A stretch of 38,234 bases of DNA from Sulfurospirillum sp. GTDB taxonomy: Bacteria > Campylobacterota > Campylobacteria > Campylobacterales > QNZT01. Each line of letters begins with the position of its first letter. Within the stretch, counting starts at the first letter, position 1. Location of the stretch: assembly GCA_024762875.1 (NCBI GenBank), contig JANTGR010000005.1, positions 1 to 38,234 of the forward strand. Direction: 5' to 3'. Below the pieces are notes generated by a model. It did no database searches. It saw nothing but the letters and a program-made list of their open reading frames with translations, and was not told the DNA's origin. Shown here in pieces: positions 2,893 to 34,548 of the stretch. The translations under genes and the position numbers were made by a program.

Positions 2893-3164
2893 TAAGGGCA
2901 CCTCTAAAAAGCCCAGATACTCATAACATCACTAGCTTTTTATTAGGCTAGGCACTCTCTCGCAGGACTAGCCGTAGCTAATTCAAGAGTGAGTAACGAC
3001 GCATAAGAAAAAGCTAGTTATGCCCACAGGGTGGGCTTTGAAAAAGCAATCTTCACAAAGATATTTTCTCATCTTAGCTACGGCTAGGATTTCAAAAATC
3101 TCTTTGCAAATCTTACTTTTTCAAAGCCCATTATGAGTATCTGGGCTTTTTAGAGGCGCCCTTA
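2893..3164. mobile_element. MITE-like element, 268 bp, 32-bp TIRs, TA target duplication
   Basis: Left end AGGGCACCTCTAAAAAGCCC... (2895-2926) and right end (3131-3162) are inverted repeats matching at 31 of 32 positions. Both are flanked by TA (2893-2894 and 3163-3164), the duplication made by IS630/Tc1-mariner-type transposases. The interior is a set of perfect inverted repeats: CTAGCTTTTT 2932-2941 with 3008-3017, CTAGCCGTAGCTA 2968-2980 with 3075-3087, and TGGGCTTTGAAAAAG 3032-3046 with 3116-3130. No transposase or plausible ORF is present, so it is a non-autonomous element. It lies between the divergent hpt and DUF234/flgS operons, directly beside a -10 box. Confidence 0.8.
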
Positions 3165-5121: not shown

Positions 5122-6071
5122 AAGAGGGGAAAAAGGCAATCGTCTTTTTAAATATGGGGGCACCACACAATCTGGATGAAGTGGGTGTCTTTTTAAAAAA
5201 TATGTTCAATGACAAAAACATCATTACTGTCAAAAAAAAATTTGTTCGTAAAATCATTGCCACATCCATCGTAACAGCCAGAGGAAAAGAAGCGAGAGAA
5301 AACTATAAAAAGCTAGGTGGTTTTTCGCCGCTGGTAACCCAAACACAAAAACTGCTTGAAGCAGTCAGAAAAGAGTACCCGGATCATATTGTTGTCAATA
5401 TTATGCGCTATACACCGCCATTTGCCGAAAAAGAACTGCGTTGGCTGAAAGCCAAAAAAGTAGAAGAAATTGTACTTTTTCCACTGTATCCACACTACTC
5501 AACTACTACAGTCAAATCCTCTTTGGAAGATTTTTATGAAACTTGTGAAATGATCAACTATCTGCCCAAGGTCAAAGAGATCAAACCTTTTTATAAAAAT
5601 GCACACTACAATCAGAGCGTTTTAGACACAATCAAAGCAAAAATATGCCCCCAAAAAGACAATTTGGAAGAAATTGATCTCATTTTTTCTGCCCACTCTC
5701 TTCCCAAAAAAATCGTCTGTGATGGAGACAGCTATAAAGATGAAATAGAAGAGCATGTCAAGATACTTTCAAAACTGCTAACAAAAGAGGGACTGATATT
5801 TAAGGATATCCACCTCGCTTACCAATCCAAACTAGGGCCCATTCCATGGCTCGAACCCTCTCTTGGAGACACCCTGGAGAAACTGGAAAGCAAAAAAGTA
5901 CTCATCGTCCCACTCTCCTTTGTCCTTGACAATTCTGAAACGGAGTTTGAACTTGACATAGAGTATCGTATCGAAGCAAAAATGATCCAATACGCTGACT
6001 ATCGCGTAGCAAAATGTCCCAACGATTCAGCTGGCTTTATAGAGACAGTGAAAGCACTGGTAGACGCATGA
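5118..6071 (+). CDS. hemH: Ferrochelatase
   Basis: 317 aa. It inserts ferrous iron into protoporphyrin IX, the last step of protoheme synthesis. Family landmarks are VFLNMGAPHNLDEVGVFLKNMF at the N-terminus, MRYTPPF, LFPLYPHYSTTTVKSSLEDF, the catalytic-histidine motif FSAHSLPKKIV, LAYQSKLGPIPWLEPSL, and the C-terminal VPLSFVLDNSETEFELDIEYR with the conserved acidic residues. It is full length. The start overlaps the end of flgS by ATGA, with GGGAG upstream, and its stop overlaps the cvfB start in the same way, so these genes are translated together. Confidence 0.95.
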   Translation: MKEGKKAIVFLNMGAPHNLDEVGVFLKNMFNDKNIITVKKKFVRKIIATSIVTARGKEARENYKKLGGFSPLVTQTQKLLEAVRKEYPDHIVVNIMRYTPPFAEKELRWLKAKKVEEIVLFPLYPHYSTTTVKSSLEDFYETCEMINYLPKVKEIKPFYKNAHYNQSVLDTIKAKICPQKDNLEEIDLIFSAHSLPKKIVCDGDSYKDEIEEHVKILSKLLTKEGLIFKDIHLAYQSKLGPIPWLEPSLGDTLEKLESKKVLIVPLSFVLDNSETEFELDIEYRIEAKMIQYADYRVAKCPNDSAGFIETVKALVDA

Positions 6072-6904
6072 ATCATACTATCATGATAGGTACAGTCAAT
6101 ACGCTGACTATCAATAGAGAGAGTGACAACGGTCTGTATCTTCTCTCTGGGGACAACAGTGAAGTCCTGCTTCCAAATATCTACGTCACAGATGCAATGG
6201 AGTTGGGTGATACAATCGATGTCTTTGTCTATACGGACTCTGAAGACCGTATCGTGGCCACAACACTCACACCAAAAGCCATGTTGGGAGATTTTGCCTT
6301 TTTAAAAGTCATCGATACCAATCCACACGGTCTCTTTCTAGAGTGGGGTCTGCCAAAAGATCTCTTTGTGCCTCTGCGTGAACAGAAAAATCTCAAAGTG
6401 GGAGATGAAAGACTTTTTTATATCACCCTCGATGAAAAGACAAACCGGCTCATTGCTTCTCAAAAAATAGGAAAATATCTTGACGGTGATATCAAAGATC
6501 TCAGTACAAACCAGAAAGTATCTCTGCTGATCATGGCATCCACACCACTGGGATATAAAACGCTCATCAATAAAAGCTATGAAGGAATGCTCTATAAAAA
6601 TGAGATCTTTGAACCTATCATGATAGGAGAAGAAAAAGAAGGCTATATCAAAGAAATCCGAAAAGATGGCAAGATCGATCTTTCTTTACAACCGATAGGT
6701 AAAGAAAAATCAAATGACAATGCCACGGCTAAAATAGAGGCATTGCTCAATCAAAACGGCACTTTGCCCTACAATTATAAAAGTGATGCCATAGCAATTC
6801 AAAAAATATTTGGATTGAGTAAAAAAGCATATAAACGTGCATTAACCACGCTGATAGATGCCAAAAAAATTACAGTGGATGAATCGGGGATGAAAAAGCT
6901 TTAA
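6068..6904 (+). CDS. cvfB: S1-domain RNA-binding protein, CvfB/YitL family
   Basis: 278 aa from the ATG at 6068, which overlaps the hemH stop (gcATGAat). The longer track ORF from 6014 would overlap hemH by 58 nt and is unlikely. The order matches CvfB: several small S1-like beta-barrels (LGDFAFLKVIDTNPHGLFLEWGLPKDLFVPLREQ; EPIMIGEEKEGYIKEIRKDGKIDLSLQP) followed by a winged-helix end (YNYKSDAIAIQKIFGLSKKAYKRALTTLID). In Staphylococcus and Streptococcus, CvfB binds RNA and affects virulence and mRNA stability; its role in Campylobacterota is not established. Two TATCATGATA palindromes lie in this gene, each encoding I-M-I. Confidence 0.85.
   Translation: MNHTIMIGTVNTLTINRESDNGLYLLSGDNSEVLLPNIYVTDAMELGDTIDVFVYTDSEDRIVATTLTPKAMLGDFAFLKVIDTNPHGLFLEWGLPKDLFVPLREQKNLKVGDERLFYITLDEKTNRLIASQKIGKYLDGDIKDLSTNQKVSLLIMASTPLGYKTLINKSYEGMLYKNEIFEPIMIGEEKEGYIKEIRKDGKIDLSLQPIGKEKSNDNATAKIEALLNQNGTLPYNYKSDAIAIQKIFGLSKKAYKRALTTLIDAKKITVDESGMKKL
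6079..6088. repeat. TATCATGATA palindrome, site 2
   Basis: At the 5' end of cvfB, full CTATCATGATAG; read as I-M-I. Confidence 0.9.
6616..6625. repeat. TATCATGATA palindrome, site 3
   Basis: In cvfB, within a perfect 14-bp palindrome CCTATCATGATAGG; read as I-M-I. Confidence 0.9.
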
Positions 6905-6934: not shown

Positions 6935-7201
6935 ATGCATAAAAAATATAAATTTGAACGAAGAAGTCACTCTTATCTTAAGCCTTTGCTCTATCTTGCT
7001 TTGCAAGTAGTATTGGTATGGGAGATTTTTTGGATAGTCACAGGAGACGCAAAACTTCGCTCCTGGAGTTACCTAGAACTCTTTTTCTGCACTATCATGA
7101 TAGTCTATTTTATGGTTCAAACAAGACGTATTTTAAAAAGAACCAACAAAAAAACCAAATGGGATGATGCAATAGATGCCCAAAAATTTCTCAATTCTTG
7201 A
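6935..7201 (+). CDS. Small two-helix membrane protein, unknown function
   Basis: 88 aa with two likely transmembrane helices (about LKPLLYLALQVVLVWEIFWIV and LELFFCTIMIVYFMVQT) and charged ends (KKYKFERRSH; RRILKRTNKKTKWDD). The positive residues suggest both ends face the cytoplasm. It follows cvfB by 30 nt on the same strand, but the ribosome site is weak, so the start is not certain. It overlaps the convergent lipoprotein gene by 11 bp. It carries one palindrome (ACTATCATGATAGT, a perfect 14-bp palindrome) within the second helix. I do not recognise the family. Confidence 0.6.
   Translation: MHKKYKFERRSHSYLKPLLYLALQVVLVWEIFWIVTGDAKLRSWSYLELFFCTIMIVYFMVQTRRILKRTNKKTKWDDAIDAQKFLNS
7093..7102. 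repeat. TATCATGATA palindrome, site 4
   Basis: In the small membrane protein gene, within a perfect 14-bp palindrome ACTATCATGATAGT; read as I-M-I. Confidence 0.9.
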
Positions 7202-11996: not shown

Positions 11997-12027
11997 CCTA
12001 AAAAAAGTAAAATCTACTAATCATTCC

Positions 12028-12037
12028 TATCATGATA
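12028..12037. repeat. TATCATGATA palindrome, site 7
   Basis: Intergenic, just past the cpoB stop and upstream of the slyD promoter; full CTATCATGATAG. Confidence 0.9.
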
Positions 12038-12040
12038 GTG

Positions 12041-12871
12041 TTAATTCAGATATTTTTCTGCAATATTAGCCTGTGAACTCTCAGGATAACTTGTCAGTAT
12101 CGTATCAAAAAAGCGCTGCGCATTTTCATTATCACCCAGGTTTTTAAAACTCAAAGCCGTATGCAGCAGCAATGTCGGCATATAAGATGCCTGATCATAA
12201 AAACCTACACTCTTTTTAAAATAGGCAATTGCCTCTTCATAATTTTTCTGATAATACGCAATCTCACCCAAATAATAGTGCGTTTTTGCCGGCTTATAAT
12301 TATTTGCAGCCAATAGCTGAAAAGATTTTTTGGCTTTTGAATAACGTTTTGCCCGGTAGTCGCTGATAGCACGCTGTATGATGGCACTGTTGCTTTTTAC
12401 TTTTGTTTTTGCTTTAGTCTCTTTTTTTTTAGATGATTTTTTACTGTTGCCCATCGCCGCAGTCAAATTTTTTAATGCCTGGTTGATCTTTTGATAATTA
12501 TTTTCACTCTTTTTTTTCAAAGTATCAATTTGTGCCTGCATGGCAGCAACTTCTGTTGCATCAGCTTTACTGTTTTGGGCATTGATCTCACTCAGTTTTT
12601 GACCCGTTTGACCTATCTTACTGCTGATAGAATCAATCACCGTACGCAGTCCTTCAACTGTCTCTTGTAACTGTTCTATCTTTAAGGCCTGCTGACGAAT
12701 CAGTTTTTGATTGGAGAGTGAAACTTGTCTGTTTTCTACAACAGAGCGTTCTGTCTGGGTTAAACCGTAAGGGTTACTACTGTCCATACTTCCAGCCCCA
12801 AAGGCAGAAGGTTCATCTGCCTGCACTAAAACAGCGGCTAACAATATCCCTGCAATAAAATATTTCATCAA
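12041..12871 (-). CDS. cpoB: Tol-Pal accessory protein CpoB (YbgF)
   Basis: 276 aa. A signal peptide (MMKYFIAGILLAAVLVQA) is followed by a coiled-coil region (about 45-145, QALKIEQLQETVEGLRTVIDS...) that in CpoB forms trimers, a lysine-rich linker, and C-terminal TPR repeats (AISDYRAKRYSKAKKSFQLLA; HYYLGEIAYYQKNYEEAIAYFKKSV; LLHTALSFKNLGDNENAQRFFDTIL). It is periplasmic and links Tol energy to outer-membrane constriction and peptidoglycan synthesis in E. coli. It lies 3 nt after pal, the standard end of a tol-pal operon. The palindrome CTATCATGATAG lies just past its stop. Confidence 0.9.
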   Translation of the reverse strand: MMKYFIAGILLAAVLVQADEPSAFGAGSMDSSNPYGLTQTERSVVENRQVSLSNQKLIRQQALKIEQLQETVEGLRTVIDSISSKIGQTGQKLSEINAQNSKADATEVAAMQAQIDTLKKKSENNYQKINQALKNLTAAMGNSKKSSKKKETKAKTKVKSNSAIIQRAISDYRAKRYSKAKKSFQLLAANNYKPAKTHYYLGEIAYYQKNYEEAIAYFKKSVGFYDQASYMPTLLLHTALSFKNLGDNENAQRFFDTILTSYPESSQANIAEKYLN

Positions 12872-25810: not shown

Positions 25811-26576
25811 GTGCCTTTTTAAAGTATGTTCCACCTTTATGTTGACCTTCTAGTAAAAAACTACGTACATCTGAGAGATCAAAACCGCTGGCTAAAAACA
25901 TCTCCTGATTGGCAGAGAGTAAAAATGCTGCAGCCTTGAGTTTTGTAACGATACCGCCTGTTGCAAATTCATGGTTTGGTGTGTGCATCTTTTCCAGATC
26001 TTCCTGATTGATATCATGTACTATTTTCAACATACGCGCATCTGGATTTTCTCGCGGATCACTGTCGTAGTAGCCATCGATATCTGATAAAATCACTAAC
26101 AAATCCGCATCAAAATGGTGTGCTACATGTGCAGAAAGTTGGTCATTGTCACCAAATACCAACTCTTCAGTCGTGGTCACATCATTTTCATTGATGATAG
26201 GCAACACTCCATTTTTAAACAATATTTCTACCGTATTTTTAGCATGTCTCGTGCGTCTTCTAGAATCAAAATCATCTGCACCCAATAACATCTGAGCCAC
26301 TACAATGCCCTGCTTTTCAAACTTTTTTTGATAAACAGAGATAAGATAGGGCTGTCCAACGGCAGCAATTGCCTGTTTATTTCCTACTATAGACTTATCC
26401 AGTTTAAGCTTTGTATAGCCGGCTGCAACAGCGCCGGAAGAAACCAATACAACTTCATGTTCCAACATCAAATCTGCCAAAAAATCACACAGATTCATGA
26501 TGCGATCCCGTGCCAATCTGCCCTGCTGGCTCAATACATGTGAGCCCACCTTAATCACTATTCTCTTTTTTTTCAT
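25803..26576 (-). CDS. proB: Glutamate 5-kinase, short form without PUA domain
   Basis: 257 aa; E. coli ProB is about 367 aa because of a C-terminal PUA domain that is missing here. The amino-acid kinase core is complete: [86 protein letters not shown] and [15 protein letters not shown]. It makes glutamyl-5-phosphate for proline synthesis. The short form is common in Campylobacterota. It overlaps obgE by 4 nt and fmt by 4 nt. Confidence 0.95.
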
Positions 26577-27682
26577 GACTCTTCTTGCTCATCCTCTTTG
26601 ACTTGATTGACCACTTCTAACAGAGCATATTTCAAAGGCTCAACATTGGTTCGCACGACTGATGAGATAGGTGCTATAAAAAATGCTTCACGCTTGTCAT
26701 AGCTGTCTATATCCTGAATATAGACTGGATACTCTGGATCAAATTTATATAGATTGTCTTTTTGATCCACTTTTTTGCCCAATGAATTAATAAAATTTTC
26801 TATTCGTTCATCTACTTCACTCTTATCCGTTGCATCCAGGCGGGTCAAAGCAATCGCAAAGCTTCGTGTTTTTAATGTATCTGAAAATTTTGCCAACTCT
26901 TCCTTTAGAACACGATACTGCTCCTCCAGTGGACGATAATTTGCCAAATCCAGCATAAAAAGCAAAAATTTTGTCCTCTCTATATGTTTTAAAAACTCCA
27001 ATCCCAATCCACGACCATCACTGGCTCCTTCAATAATACCCGGTATATCTGCCATCACAAATGAAGCAAAATCATCCGTACTCACCACACCAAGTTTGGG
27101 AGTCAGTGTTGTAAACTCATAGTTTGCTATCTCTGGTCTGGCATTGGATATCGTTGAAATCAGTGTTGATTTTCCAACATTTGGCACCCCCACCAAACCA
27201 ACATCAGCAATCAACTTTAATTCCAGTCGTACAGATCTCACTTCGCCTGGAAGTCCGGGCTGAGAGTAAGTGGGACGTTGATTGGTAGAACTTCTAAAAT
27301 GCCAGTTGCCCAGTCCGCCTTTCCCACCTTCTAAAAACTTGACACGCTCTCCATCTTTTACCAAATCCAGTAAAAGTTCTCCTGTTGTCACATCAAAGAC
27401 TTGGGTACCCGGTGGAACAACAACATCAATTGACTCACCTTTTTTACCGTATTTTTTGCGTCCCTCACCTGGTGCGCCATTTTTGGCTTTCATATGGTGG
27501 CGGCCGCGAAAAGATGAAAGTGTGTGCGAGTTTTTATCTACAACAAAGTAAACATCTCCGCCGCGTCCACCGTCTCCGCCGTCAGGCCCGCCTTTTAAAA
27601 CAAATTTTTCCTGACGAAATGAAGTTGCTCCAGGTCCGCCTTTTCCAGAGCTTAATTCTATCTCTGCATTATCGATAAACAT
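26573..27682 (-). CDS. obgE: GTPase Obg/CgtA
   Basis: 369 aa from ATG 27682 ([26 protein letters not shown]), with AAGG upstream. The track start at 27724 begins inside the 92-bp repeat and is unlikely. The N-terminal glycine-rich Obg fold (about 1-160) precedes the G domain with [15 protein letters not shown] (G1), [11 protein letters not shown] (G2), [29 protein letters not shown] (G3) and ALTRLD (G4-like, where NKxD would be usual). It acts in 50S ribosome assembly and stringent control. It normally follows rplU-rpmA; here rpmA is missing. Confidence 0.96.
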
Positions 27683-27700
27683 TGAATACCTTGATTTAAG

Positions 27701-27794
27701 ATTGAGTGTTTTGAACAAACCCACTTGTGAACGGCTCTACAGCCATTTTAGGGCGCAGCCTTAGTGAATAAGTGTGTTTGTTCAGAACACTCGA
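27701..27794. repeat. 92-bp hairpin repeat, copy A (upstream of obgE)
   Basis: It matches copy B at 33218-33309 at 82 of 92 positions with no gap and in the same orientation. The ends are inverted (TTGAGTGT...ACACTCGA) and the centre holds CTACAGCC and GGGCGCAGCC with a small inner hairpin. It is non-coding and lies in the obgE leader. It resembles a REP- or MITE-type short interspersed repeat. Confidence 0.75.
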
Positions 27795-27800
27795 GTGTAA

Positions 27801-27855
27801 AGAACCCTCTGAACAAATAGAAGAAACAAAATAGGCTAGTTGTTCAGAGGGTTCT
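27801..27855 (-). other. Large perfect hairpin in the rplU-obgE gap
   Basis: AGAACCCTCTGAACAA (27801-27816) and TTGTTCAGAGGGTTCT (27840-27855) form a perfect 16-bp inverted repeat with a 23-nt loop. On the minus strand it starts about 10 nt after a TATAAT box and ends before copy A of the 92-bp repeat, so it would fold at the 5' end of an obgE leader RNA. It could also be a terminator for rplU, though only TTT follows. Confidence 0.55.
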
Positions 27856-27864
27856 ATTGTGATT

Positions 27865-27870
27865 ATTATA
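27865..27870 (-). promoter_or_regulatory. Putative -10 element for obgE-proB-fmt-birA-parA
   Basis: The minus strand reads TTCAATATAATAATC, with a perfect TATAAT. Transcription from it would give obgE a leader of about 175 nt that contains the 16-bp hairpin and the 92-bp repeat. The remaining part of this 268-bp gap, 27871-27950, holds a weak stem (CAGTATC/GATACTG, 27910-27937) and no ORF resembling rpmA. Confidence 0.45.
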
Positions 27871-27950
27871 TTGAAGTGTGTGTAAATAGTTGCTTGAGGA
27901 TAAGTTCACCAGTATCCGTGCATTCGCTCAGATACTGATAAAAGGTGTTA

Positions 27951-28256
27951 TTAAGCTATTTTAGTAACTTTAACTCTAGTGTGCTCTCTTCTAAAACCTT
28001 TTTTCAGTTTAGAATCTTTTCTTCTTCTCTTTTTGTAGATGATGACTTTTTTGTCTTTTCCATGAGAAACTACTTCAAGCTCAACTTTTGCACCTTTTAC
28101 AAATGGTGTACCAATAGTCAGTTCCCCGTTATTGACAGCGAGAACTTCTTCGACAGTGATTTTGTCTTTCGGCGAAGCGTCAAGTTTATCGAGATCTAAA
28201 TAATCTCCCTCTTGAACTTTATATTGCTTTCCACCGTTTTTAATGATAGCGTACAT
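27951..28256 (-). CDS. rplU: 50S ribosomal protein L21
   Basis: 101 aa. [25 protein letters not shown] is the standard L21 start, with [63 protein letters not shown] at the end. It binds 23S rRNA. In most bacteria, including relatives of this organism, rpmA (L27) follows directly; here the next 268 bp to obgE are non-coding. Confidence 0.97.
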
Positions 28257-28383: not shown

Positions 28384-28773
28384 TCAAAATGAATAATTCT
28401 GCTCTGATACAGCAATTGCATCAATTTCAATATCTACATTTTTAGGTAAAGTTTTTACAGCAACTGTACTCCTGGCAGGATATGAGCCAGCAAAAAATTC
28501 TCCGTACACTGTATTGACAGCAATAAAATCATCCATATTCGTCAGATAAATCGTAGTTTTTACAATTTGAGCCAAACTGCTTCCCGCTTCTTCAAGTACT
28601 GCCTGCAGGTTCACCAAGATTTGTCTTGTCTGTTCATGAATGTCACCCGCTACCAGTACGCCATCTGCCGTCATAGGAATTTGACCGGATGTATAGATCA
28701 TATCTCCCACTTTCACAGCTTGCGAATAAGGTCCGATTGCAGCCGGAGCTTTTTTGGTTTGTACTCTTTTCAT
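28384..28773 (-). CDS. ridA: RidA-family enamine/imine deaminase
   Basis: 129 aa, usual length. KKAPAAIGPYSQAVKVGDMIYTSGQIPM, NLQAVLEEAGSSLAQIVKTTIYLTNMDDFIAVNTVYGEFF and PARSTVAVKTLPKNVDIEIDAIAV match RidA/YjgF, with the catalytic Arg in PARSTV. It clears reactive 2-aminoacrylate and related imines made by PLP enzymes. It is transcribed alone, divergent from the outer-membrane protein gene, and followed by a hairpin. Confidence 0.95.
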   Translation of the reverse strand: MKRVQTKKAPAAIGPYSQAVKVGDMIYTSGQIPMTADGVLVAGDIHEQTRQILVNLQAVLEEAGSSLAQIVKTTIYLTNMDDFIAVNTVYGEFFAGSYPARSTVAVKTLPKNVDIEIDAIAVSEQNYSF

Positions 28774-33197: not shown

Positions 33198-33217
33198 TTT
33201 ATCCTCCTTCTTTTTTG

Positions 33218-33311
33218 ATTGAGTGTTCTGAACAAATACACTTGTGAACGACTCTACAGCCGTTTTACGGCGCAGCCTTAGTGAATGAGTGTGTTCGTTC
33301 GGTACACTCAA
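33218..33311. repeat. 92-bp hairpin repeat, copy B (glycerate kinase 3' end/gpgS leader)
   Basis: It is 82/92 identical to copy A at 27701, with inverted ends TTGAGTGT/ACACTCAA and an inner GCCGTTTTACGGC hairpin. It runs through the last codons and the stop of the glycerate kinase gene into the gpgS leader. The last 14 residues of that kinase (ECTERTHSFTKAAP) are read from the repeat. Confidence 0.78.
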
Positions 33312-34548
33312 TTGCTATCATGATATCCATCACATTGGTACCACTCTCCCCGGTGATAATCAAAGCATCCTGTGCTTTTAGATAGTGATATGAATCATTA
33401 TTTTCCAAATATCCATCTATGCTATCATGATAATTCTCTACACTGACAACAGCACCGGCGGCATCACTGTTACCATCTATACCATCACTGCCCGCACTTA
33501 AAAATGTAAACTTGGTTTCTTTTTGCATTCCTTTGAGTACCCATAAACAAAGCTCCTGATTTCGGCCACCTTTACCGCTTCCTTTTACTTCCACCGTAGG
33601 TTCACCACCAAAAAGCAGTACATTGTAGTTGGAAGTTTCATGCGCAGCGTCAATGATCTTTTGAGCAACTTCTTTCACATCACCATCCAGTGTATGTGAC
33701 ACTATCTTGGCCTGCAAGCCCATCCTGGATGCTTCTTTCTGCGCCTCTTGCAAGGCCAGATAATTGGAAGCGATGAGAAAATGGGGGAAAACAGCTCTCT
33801 TTTTATCAAGCTGCTCTTTTTTCTCTTTGAATACAGTTTGTACACTTTTGGGCAATAGAGCCAAAATATTGTATCGATCTATAATCTTGCTGGCATCTTC
33901 CTTACTGCTTGTACTCTCTAAAAGCGGCGCAGAACCAATTGCCTGCAAATCATCACCAATCACATCACTTACCACTAGAACTACCCCCTTTGCACGGGTT
34001 TTTCCAGCCAAACCGCCTCCTTTGATTTGTGAAAGTGACTTACGGATGACATTGATTTCTTCAATAGAAAGTCCACTGTGAAGCAAAACTTTTGTTGTTT
34101 CTATAAAATCCTCTAAACTCACTCCTGCAACAGGCTGTTCAATCAAAGCAGATGAACCGCCCGAGAGAAGATAGATAAAAAAGTCATTCTCTTGCATCTC
34201 TTCAAAGGATGTTATCAGTTTTTGGGCTGCAGCAATACTCTTTTTGGAAGGAAGGGGATGTGTACTTTCGATCACTTCTATACCGCTGACTGCTTCATGA
34301 TAATTGGAAACTACCATATTTTTATGGATTCTTGAGCCCATGACTTTTTGCAAAGCCTTTGCCATCTCTATTGCAGCTTTGCCTGAACCAAAAATGGATA
34401 CATGACGATACTGACGCAGATCAAATGTCTGATTTTCTATCGTCAACAAATCATCATGATAATGTACAACAGAGGGTATCAAAAAAGAAGGCATCACCGC
34501 ATGCAGCGCTTTTTCAAATAATCTAACAGCTTCTTGTTTAGGAGACAT
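33265..34548 (-). CDS. Glycerate kinase, MOFRL type
   Basis: 427 aa. The N-terminal DUF4147 domain shows VSIFGSGKAAIEMAKAL, GIEVIESTHPLPSKKSIAAAQKLI, FIYLLSGGSSALIEQPVAGVSLEDF and VIRKSLSQIKGGGLA; the C-terminal MOFRL domain shows LLFGGEPTVEVKGSGKGGRNQELCLWVL and FLSAGSDGIDGNSDAAGAV. It phosphorylates D-glycerate, normally at C2. It overlaps the HAD phosphatase gene by 11 nt. Its natural end should be near TGESGTNVMDIMIAI; the extra CTERTHSFTKAAP tail comes from the 92-bp repeat. Confidence 0.92.
   Translation of the reverse strand: MSPKQEAVRLFEKALHAVMPSFLIPSVVHYHDDLLTIENQTFDLRQYRHVSIFGSGKAAIEMAKALQKVMGSRIHKNMVVSNYHEAVSGIEVIESTHPLPSKKSIAAAQKLITSFEEMQENDFFIYLLSGGSSALIEQPVAGVSLEDFIETTKVLLHSGLSIEEINVIRKSLSQIKGGGLAGKTRAKGVVLVVSDVIGDDLQAIGSAPLLESTSSKEDASKIIDRYNILALLPKSVQTVFKEKKEQLDKKRAVFPHFLIASNYLALQEAQKEASRMGLQAKIVSHTLDGDVKEVAQKIIDAAHETSNYNVLLFGGEPTVEVKGSGKGGRNQELCLWVLKGMQKETKFTFLSAGSDGIDGNSDAAGAVVSVENYHDSIDGYLENNDSYHYLKAQDALIITGESGTNVMDIMIAIECTERTHSFTKAAP
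33316..33325. repeat. TATCATGATA palindrome, site 13
   Basis: Near the 3' end of the glycerate kinase gene, 5 bp from the 92-bp repeat; read as I-M-I. Confidence 0.9.
33423..33432. repeat. TATCATGATA palindrome, site 14
   Basis: In the glycerate kinase gene; read as Y-H-D. Confidence 0.9.

Follow-up and report, generated by a model that had tools for sequence, protein, structure and literature searches.

Separation of rpmA from rplU throughout a family of Campylobacterales, and a palindromic repeat that did not cause it

In the window (the whole stretch of DNA that was analysed, 38,234 nucleotides, from G000, a draft Campylobacterales genome of 2.28 Mb in 213 contigs, about 89% complete) rplU, which encodes ribosomal protein L21, is followed by obg without rpmA, the gene for L27, which lies intact on another contig of the same genome. 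The two genes were found on different contigs in 18 of the 18 genomes of the window's Campylobacterales family (f1) that have both. We hold it very likely that rpmA left a RidA-rplU-rpmA-obg-proB cluster once, in the ancestor of f1, that the junction closed, and that a hairpin and a palindromic repeat of about 97 bp were inserted there later.

In the window rplU (27951-28256, minus strand; TIGR00061, E = 8.8e-37; PF00829, E = 2.3e-35) is preceded by a RidA-family gene (28384-28773, minus; PF01042, E = 6.6e-44, and gene order), and obg and proB still follow it downstream. The start codon of obg (26573-27682, minus; ObgE GTPase, TIGR02729 and NF008956; start reading MFIDNAEI) is at 27682, which leaves 268 bp (27683-27950) between the two genes. 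A search of the whole genome with the Pfam L27 profile gave no match in this gap, in agreement with a preliminary description of the sequence that had seen no L27 frame there. The single match of that search was rpmA on contig C67 (9649-9888, minus), the frame of which is open and free of stops and the product of which scores 135.6 bits with TIGR00062 (cut-off 90.35; E = 4.3e-40). That rpmA had moved, as the same description supposed, is therefore borne out by an intact copy elsewhere in the genome.

On C67 rpmA lies between mrp/apbC, with which it is convergent, and an oppositely directed flavin oxidoreductase gene. The order mrp - rpmA - oxidoreductase - proA is also found in G001, a genome of the same genus, and in G003, both independently assembled. 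In the rest of f1 rpmA is usually divergent from an adjoining proA, often convergent with a nearby mrp and mostly away from contig ends. The identity of proA rests on NCBIfam TIGR00407; the mrp product is of the ApbC/Mrp type (Pfam PF10609), its NCBIfam ApbC match being slightly below the cut-off. In outgroup genomes in which mrp and proA could both be located, they lie on separate contigs or are more than 180 kb apart, which indicates that the new neighbourhood of rpmA is derived. An empty target site, with mrp adjoining proA, was not found in the outgroups, so that the move would have involved more than a simple insertion of rpmA between the two genes. The mrp-rpmA interval on C67 contains a strong hairpin resembling an intrinsic terminator (17 perfect pairs, z = -7.9), and L27 is presumably made from a transcription unit of its own. 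The L27 of G002 (L107:6557-7069, contig G002:C120) has 170 amino acids and, unlike the other f1 L27 proteins, is extended at its C terminus by a stretch that ends in a helix-hairpin-helix domain (HHH_5, E = 1.8e-07).

Family f1 has 22 genomes in the collection, every one of which was searched; four are without one or both genes and could not be scored. All are fragmented drafts, so that the split is seen as a location on different contigs and not as a measured distance, but usually several kilobases of other genes flank rplU and rpmA on both sides, and contig breaks therefore do not explain the split. Outside f1, rplU and rpmA adjoin each other in all 37 genomes from 22 further families of the order, with a gap of at most 152 bp, and in all 80 named loci retrieved with L27 from a second collection (at least 36 of them from Campylobacterota or apparent Campylobacterota) rplU is close upstream of rpmA, within about 450 bp. 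The usual order in Campylobacterota is RidA-rplU-rpmA-obg-proB; this ancestral cluster, with rpmA beside rplU, was found neither in the window genome nor in the 18 scorable f1 genomes. In trees of L21+Obg+ProB and of L21+L27+Obg f1 forms one clade (support 97 and 87), placed near Sulfurospirillaceae, Campylobacteraceae and family f9, and in the larger tree the branch uniting f1 has only 87% SH-aLRT support.

This distribution is most simply read as a single move in the ancestor of f1. From the cluster rpmA would have departed once; it now stands by itself between mrp/apbC and proA, and in three genomes including G000 the flavin oxidoreductase gene adjoins it. The RidA-rplU neighbourhood, common across the order, is kept in most f1 genomes, RidA remaining with rplU. 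In many f1 lineages obg probably came apart from rplU later: rplU is followed by polysaccharide genes in G003, G007 and G010, and by peroxiredoxin and metK genes in other f1 genomes. By NCBIfam the genes are orthologues of those in the known rplU-rpmA (L21-L27) operon with obg downstream; the difference is that throughout f1 rpmA sits in another transcription unit. The L21-L27 neighbourhood, among the most stable in bacteria, can thus apparently split once and remain split family-wide. Because the split has persisted across the family, co-transcription of L21 and L27 is not strictly needed. For draft genomes of f1 the split is a simple gene-order marker. Our literature searches found no paper on it or on the 97-bp repeat.

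The unrelated neighbours of rpmA at its new location would also fit a loss of the ancestral gene and its replacement by a horizontally acquired rpmA. We regard this as very unlikely, since the L27 of the window genome resembles that of Campylobacterota: its best named matches are from Sulfurospirillum and other Campylobacterota (85-88%), whereas clear non-Campylobacterota L27 reach at most about 72%, a comparison that bears on donors outside the order and not on those within it.

The fate of the old junction can be followed in two genomes, G001 and G002, in which obg comes directly after rplU and both rpmA and the repeat are absent from the junction. When the 20-nt-arm hairpin and the repeat (both described below) are subtracted from the gap of the window, 113 bp remain, which align with the 118-bp rplU-obg spacer of G001 with a score of 68.5 (1000 shuffles: mean 26, maximum 55); the spacer of G002 is shorter still. 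Among the features kept between the window and G001 are ATTTACxCAxACTTC and, after it, a TATAAT-like sequence, which in the window (27865-27870, minus) may be the -10-like element of a candidate obg promoter. This reading is drawn from the sequence and the alignment; a sigma-70 scan that needs a -35 box did not list the TATAAT. Directly 3' of the rplU stop the window contains a hairpin (27905-27942, minus; -19.4 kcal/mol, z = -5.4) that the preliminary description had overlooked, and hairpin-like sequence is also seen in G001 at the same place after rplU. It possibly forms the 3' end of the rplU mRNA; without a U-run it is not a canonical intrinsic terminator. A search of the gap against Rfam gave no family at the gathering score, the weak matches being generic hairpins. 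We infer that the junction closed from rplU to obg in the lineages to which the window, G001 and G002 belong, and that the remaining spacer measured about 40-120 bp; in its G001-type form it would hold the hairpin after rplU and the candidate obg promoter. The obg of G001 (L124:2866-3969, contig G001:C45) appears to be split in two frames, with an open frame of 228 amino acids; this frameshift may stem from a sequencing error or may truly disrupt a gene that is normally essential.

Two further elements lie in the gap of the window, both of which the preliminary description had rightly noticed. One is a hairpin with 20-nt arms (27801-27855; arms 27801-27820 and 27836-27855, 95% complementary; folding z = -7.6), which has no second full-length copy in a search of G000 and is not present in the G001 spacer. 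The other, about 16 bp upstream of the start codon of obg, is a copy of a multi-copy repeat (27699-27796, plus) whose core is conserved and whose stem covaries; described earlier as 92 bp long, it measures about 97 bp. At least 46 unique copies were recovered from G000 by genome pattern searches and from retrieved stretches, whereas the 58 relatives searched, G001 included, contained none. The hairpin and one repeat copy would thus have entered the spacer, beside the obg ribosome-binding site, in the window lineage only, among those sampled, and so have extended it to 268 bp.

With a multi-copy repeat exactly in the gap, the preliminary description had proposed either that rpmA moved by recombination between repeat copies or that the assembly had wrongly joined two copies, rpmA being truly at this site. 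The number of copies and the state of the draft would allow a misjoin, but G001 and G002 have the same junction without any repeat, so that a misassembly is not needed; RidA before rplU and obg-proB after it are arranged as in the ancestral cluster, which shows that the two flanks of the repeat go together; and rpmA adjoins mrp in G000 as in independent assemblies. An assembly error is therefore extremely unlikely. Just as unlikely is a recent move in this species via repeat recombination, since C67 yielded no copy of the repeat, the split is family-wide and the 58 relatives searched lack the repeat. The repeat is therefore younger than the move of rpmA and cannot be its cause, unless it once existed in all of G001-G021 and disappeared from every one. 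More generally, a repeat inside a gap need not be what produced the gap. The probable departure of rpmA in the f1 ancestor is a modest piece of genome history; the repeat, restricted to G000 among the genomes searched, merits a study of its own.

Every copy of the repeat is a single long, imperfect palindrome in which the core is conserved and the arms measure about 23-30 nt. In 43 aligned copies 14 of the 30 consensus pairs show two-sided changes that preserve pairing. These compensating changes may reflect selection for the hairpin; correction of either arm from the other during replication of the palindrome would yield the same covariation, and RNA function is not proven by the pattern. Among 41 copies scored on mechanical gene calls, 30 lie between genes of the same direction, 8 between diverging pairs and 3 between converging ones. 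The repeat often lies within about 10-30 bp of a start codon. That it acts in RNA, as a functional 5'-leader or intercistronic element, its stem selected at about 50 loci and here acting on obg, the control of which was rewired after rpmA had left, we consider improbable. The second copy in the window (33216-33312, plus) lies immediately ahead of a glycosyltransferase gene. A glycerate kinase open reading frame (33265-34548) apparently reaches into it with its C-terminal end, and the copy may supply the stop and the last residues of this frame.

Being short, non-coding and multi-copy (46 copies recovered) with terminal inverted repeats, the element has the general make-up of a MITE. With the known bacterial MITEs and small palindromic repeats such as Correia, ERIC and RUP (review PMC10969869) it shares a length of about 100 bp, inverted-repeat ends, a mostly intergenic and dispersed location and dozens of copies. 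It differs from MITEs in that the palindrome, long, imperfect and conserved in its core, takes up the entire element, its stem varying in a compensating way. Neither an autonomous partner nor a clear target duplication was found for it. The flanks of the copies have a weak excess of matches (for example at 2 bp, 11 observed versus 5.9 expected). Beyond the short elements the arm pattern (at most 3 mismatches) recovered only two solitary arms, on C42 and C3, and no arm pair enclosing a transposase was found with it in G000, as far as this genome is complete (about 89%). Like the repeats of REP/RAYT (Y1) systems the element is palindromic, extragenic and present in high copy number, and G000 has one Y1 transposase gene (on C52); yet REPs are 20-40 bp long (PMC3733652), and no copy of the repeat is listed on C52. 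The Y1 transposase was rejected as partner, the gene not being linked to the repeat. An identity with integron attC sites was likewise rejected, since the copies are scattered in either orientation and do not form arrays.

The Y1 gene (L309, contig G000:C52) adjoins a chemotaxis receptor gene and lies between copies of the motif GTCAGGTGAT. In the window, a 272-bp element (2893-3164) has inverted ends of 34 nt that are 97% complementary, contains a further, nested inverted repeat and looks, from its sequence, like a different MITE, and the palindrome CTATCATGATAG recurs at 6058-6089, 7092-7123 and 12006-12059.
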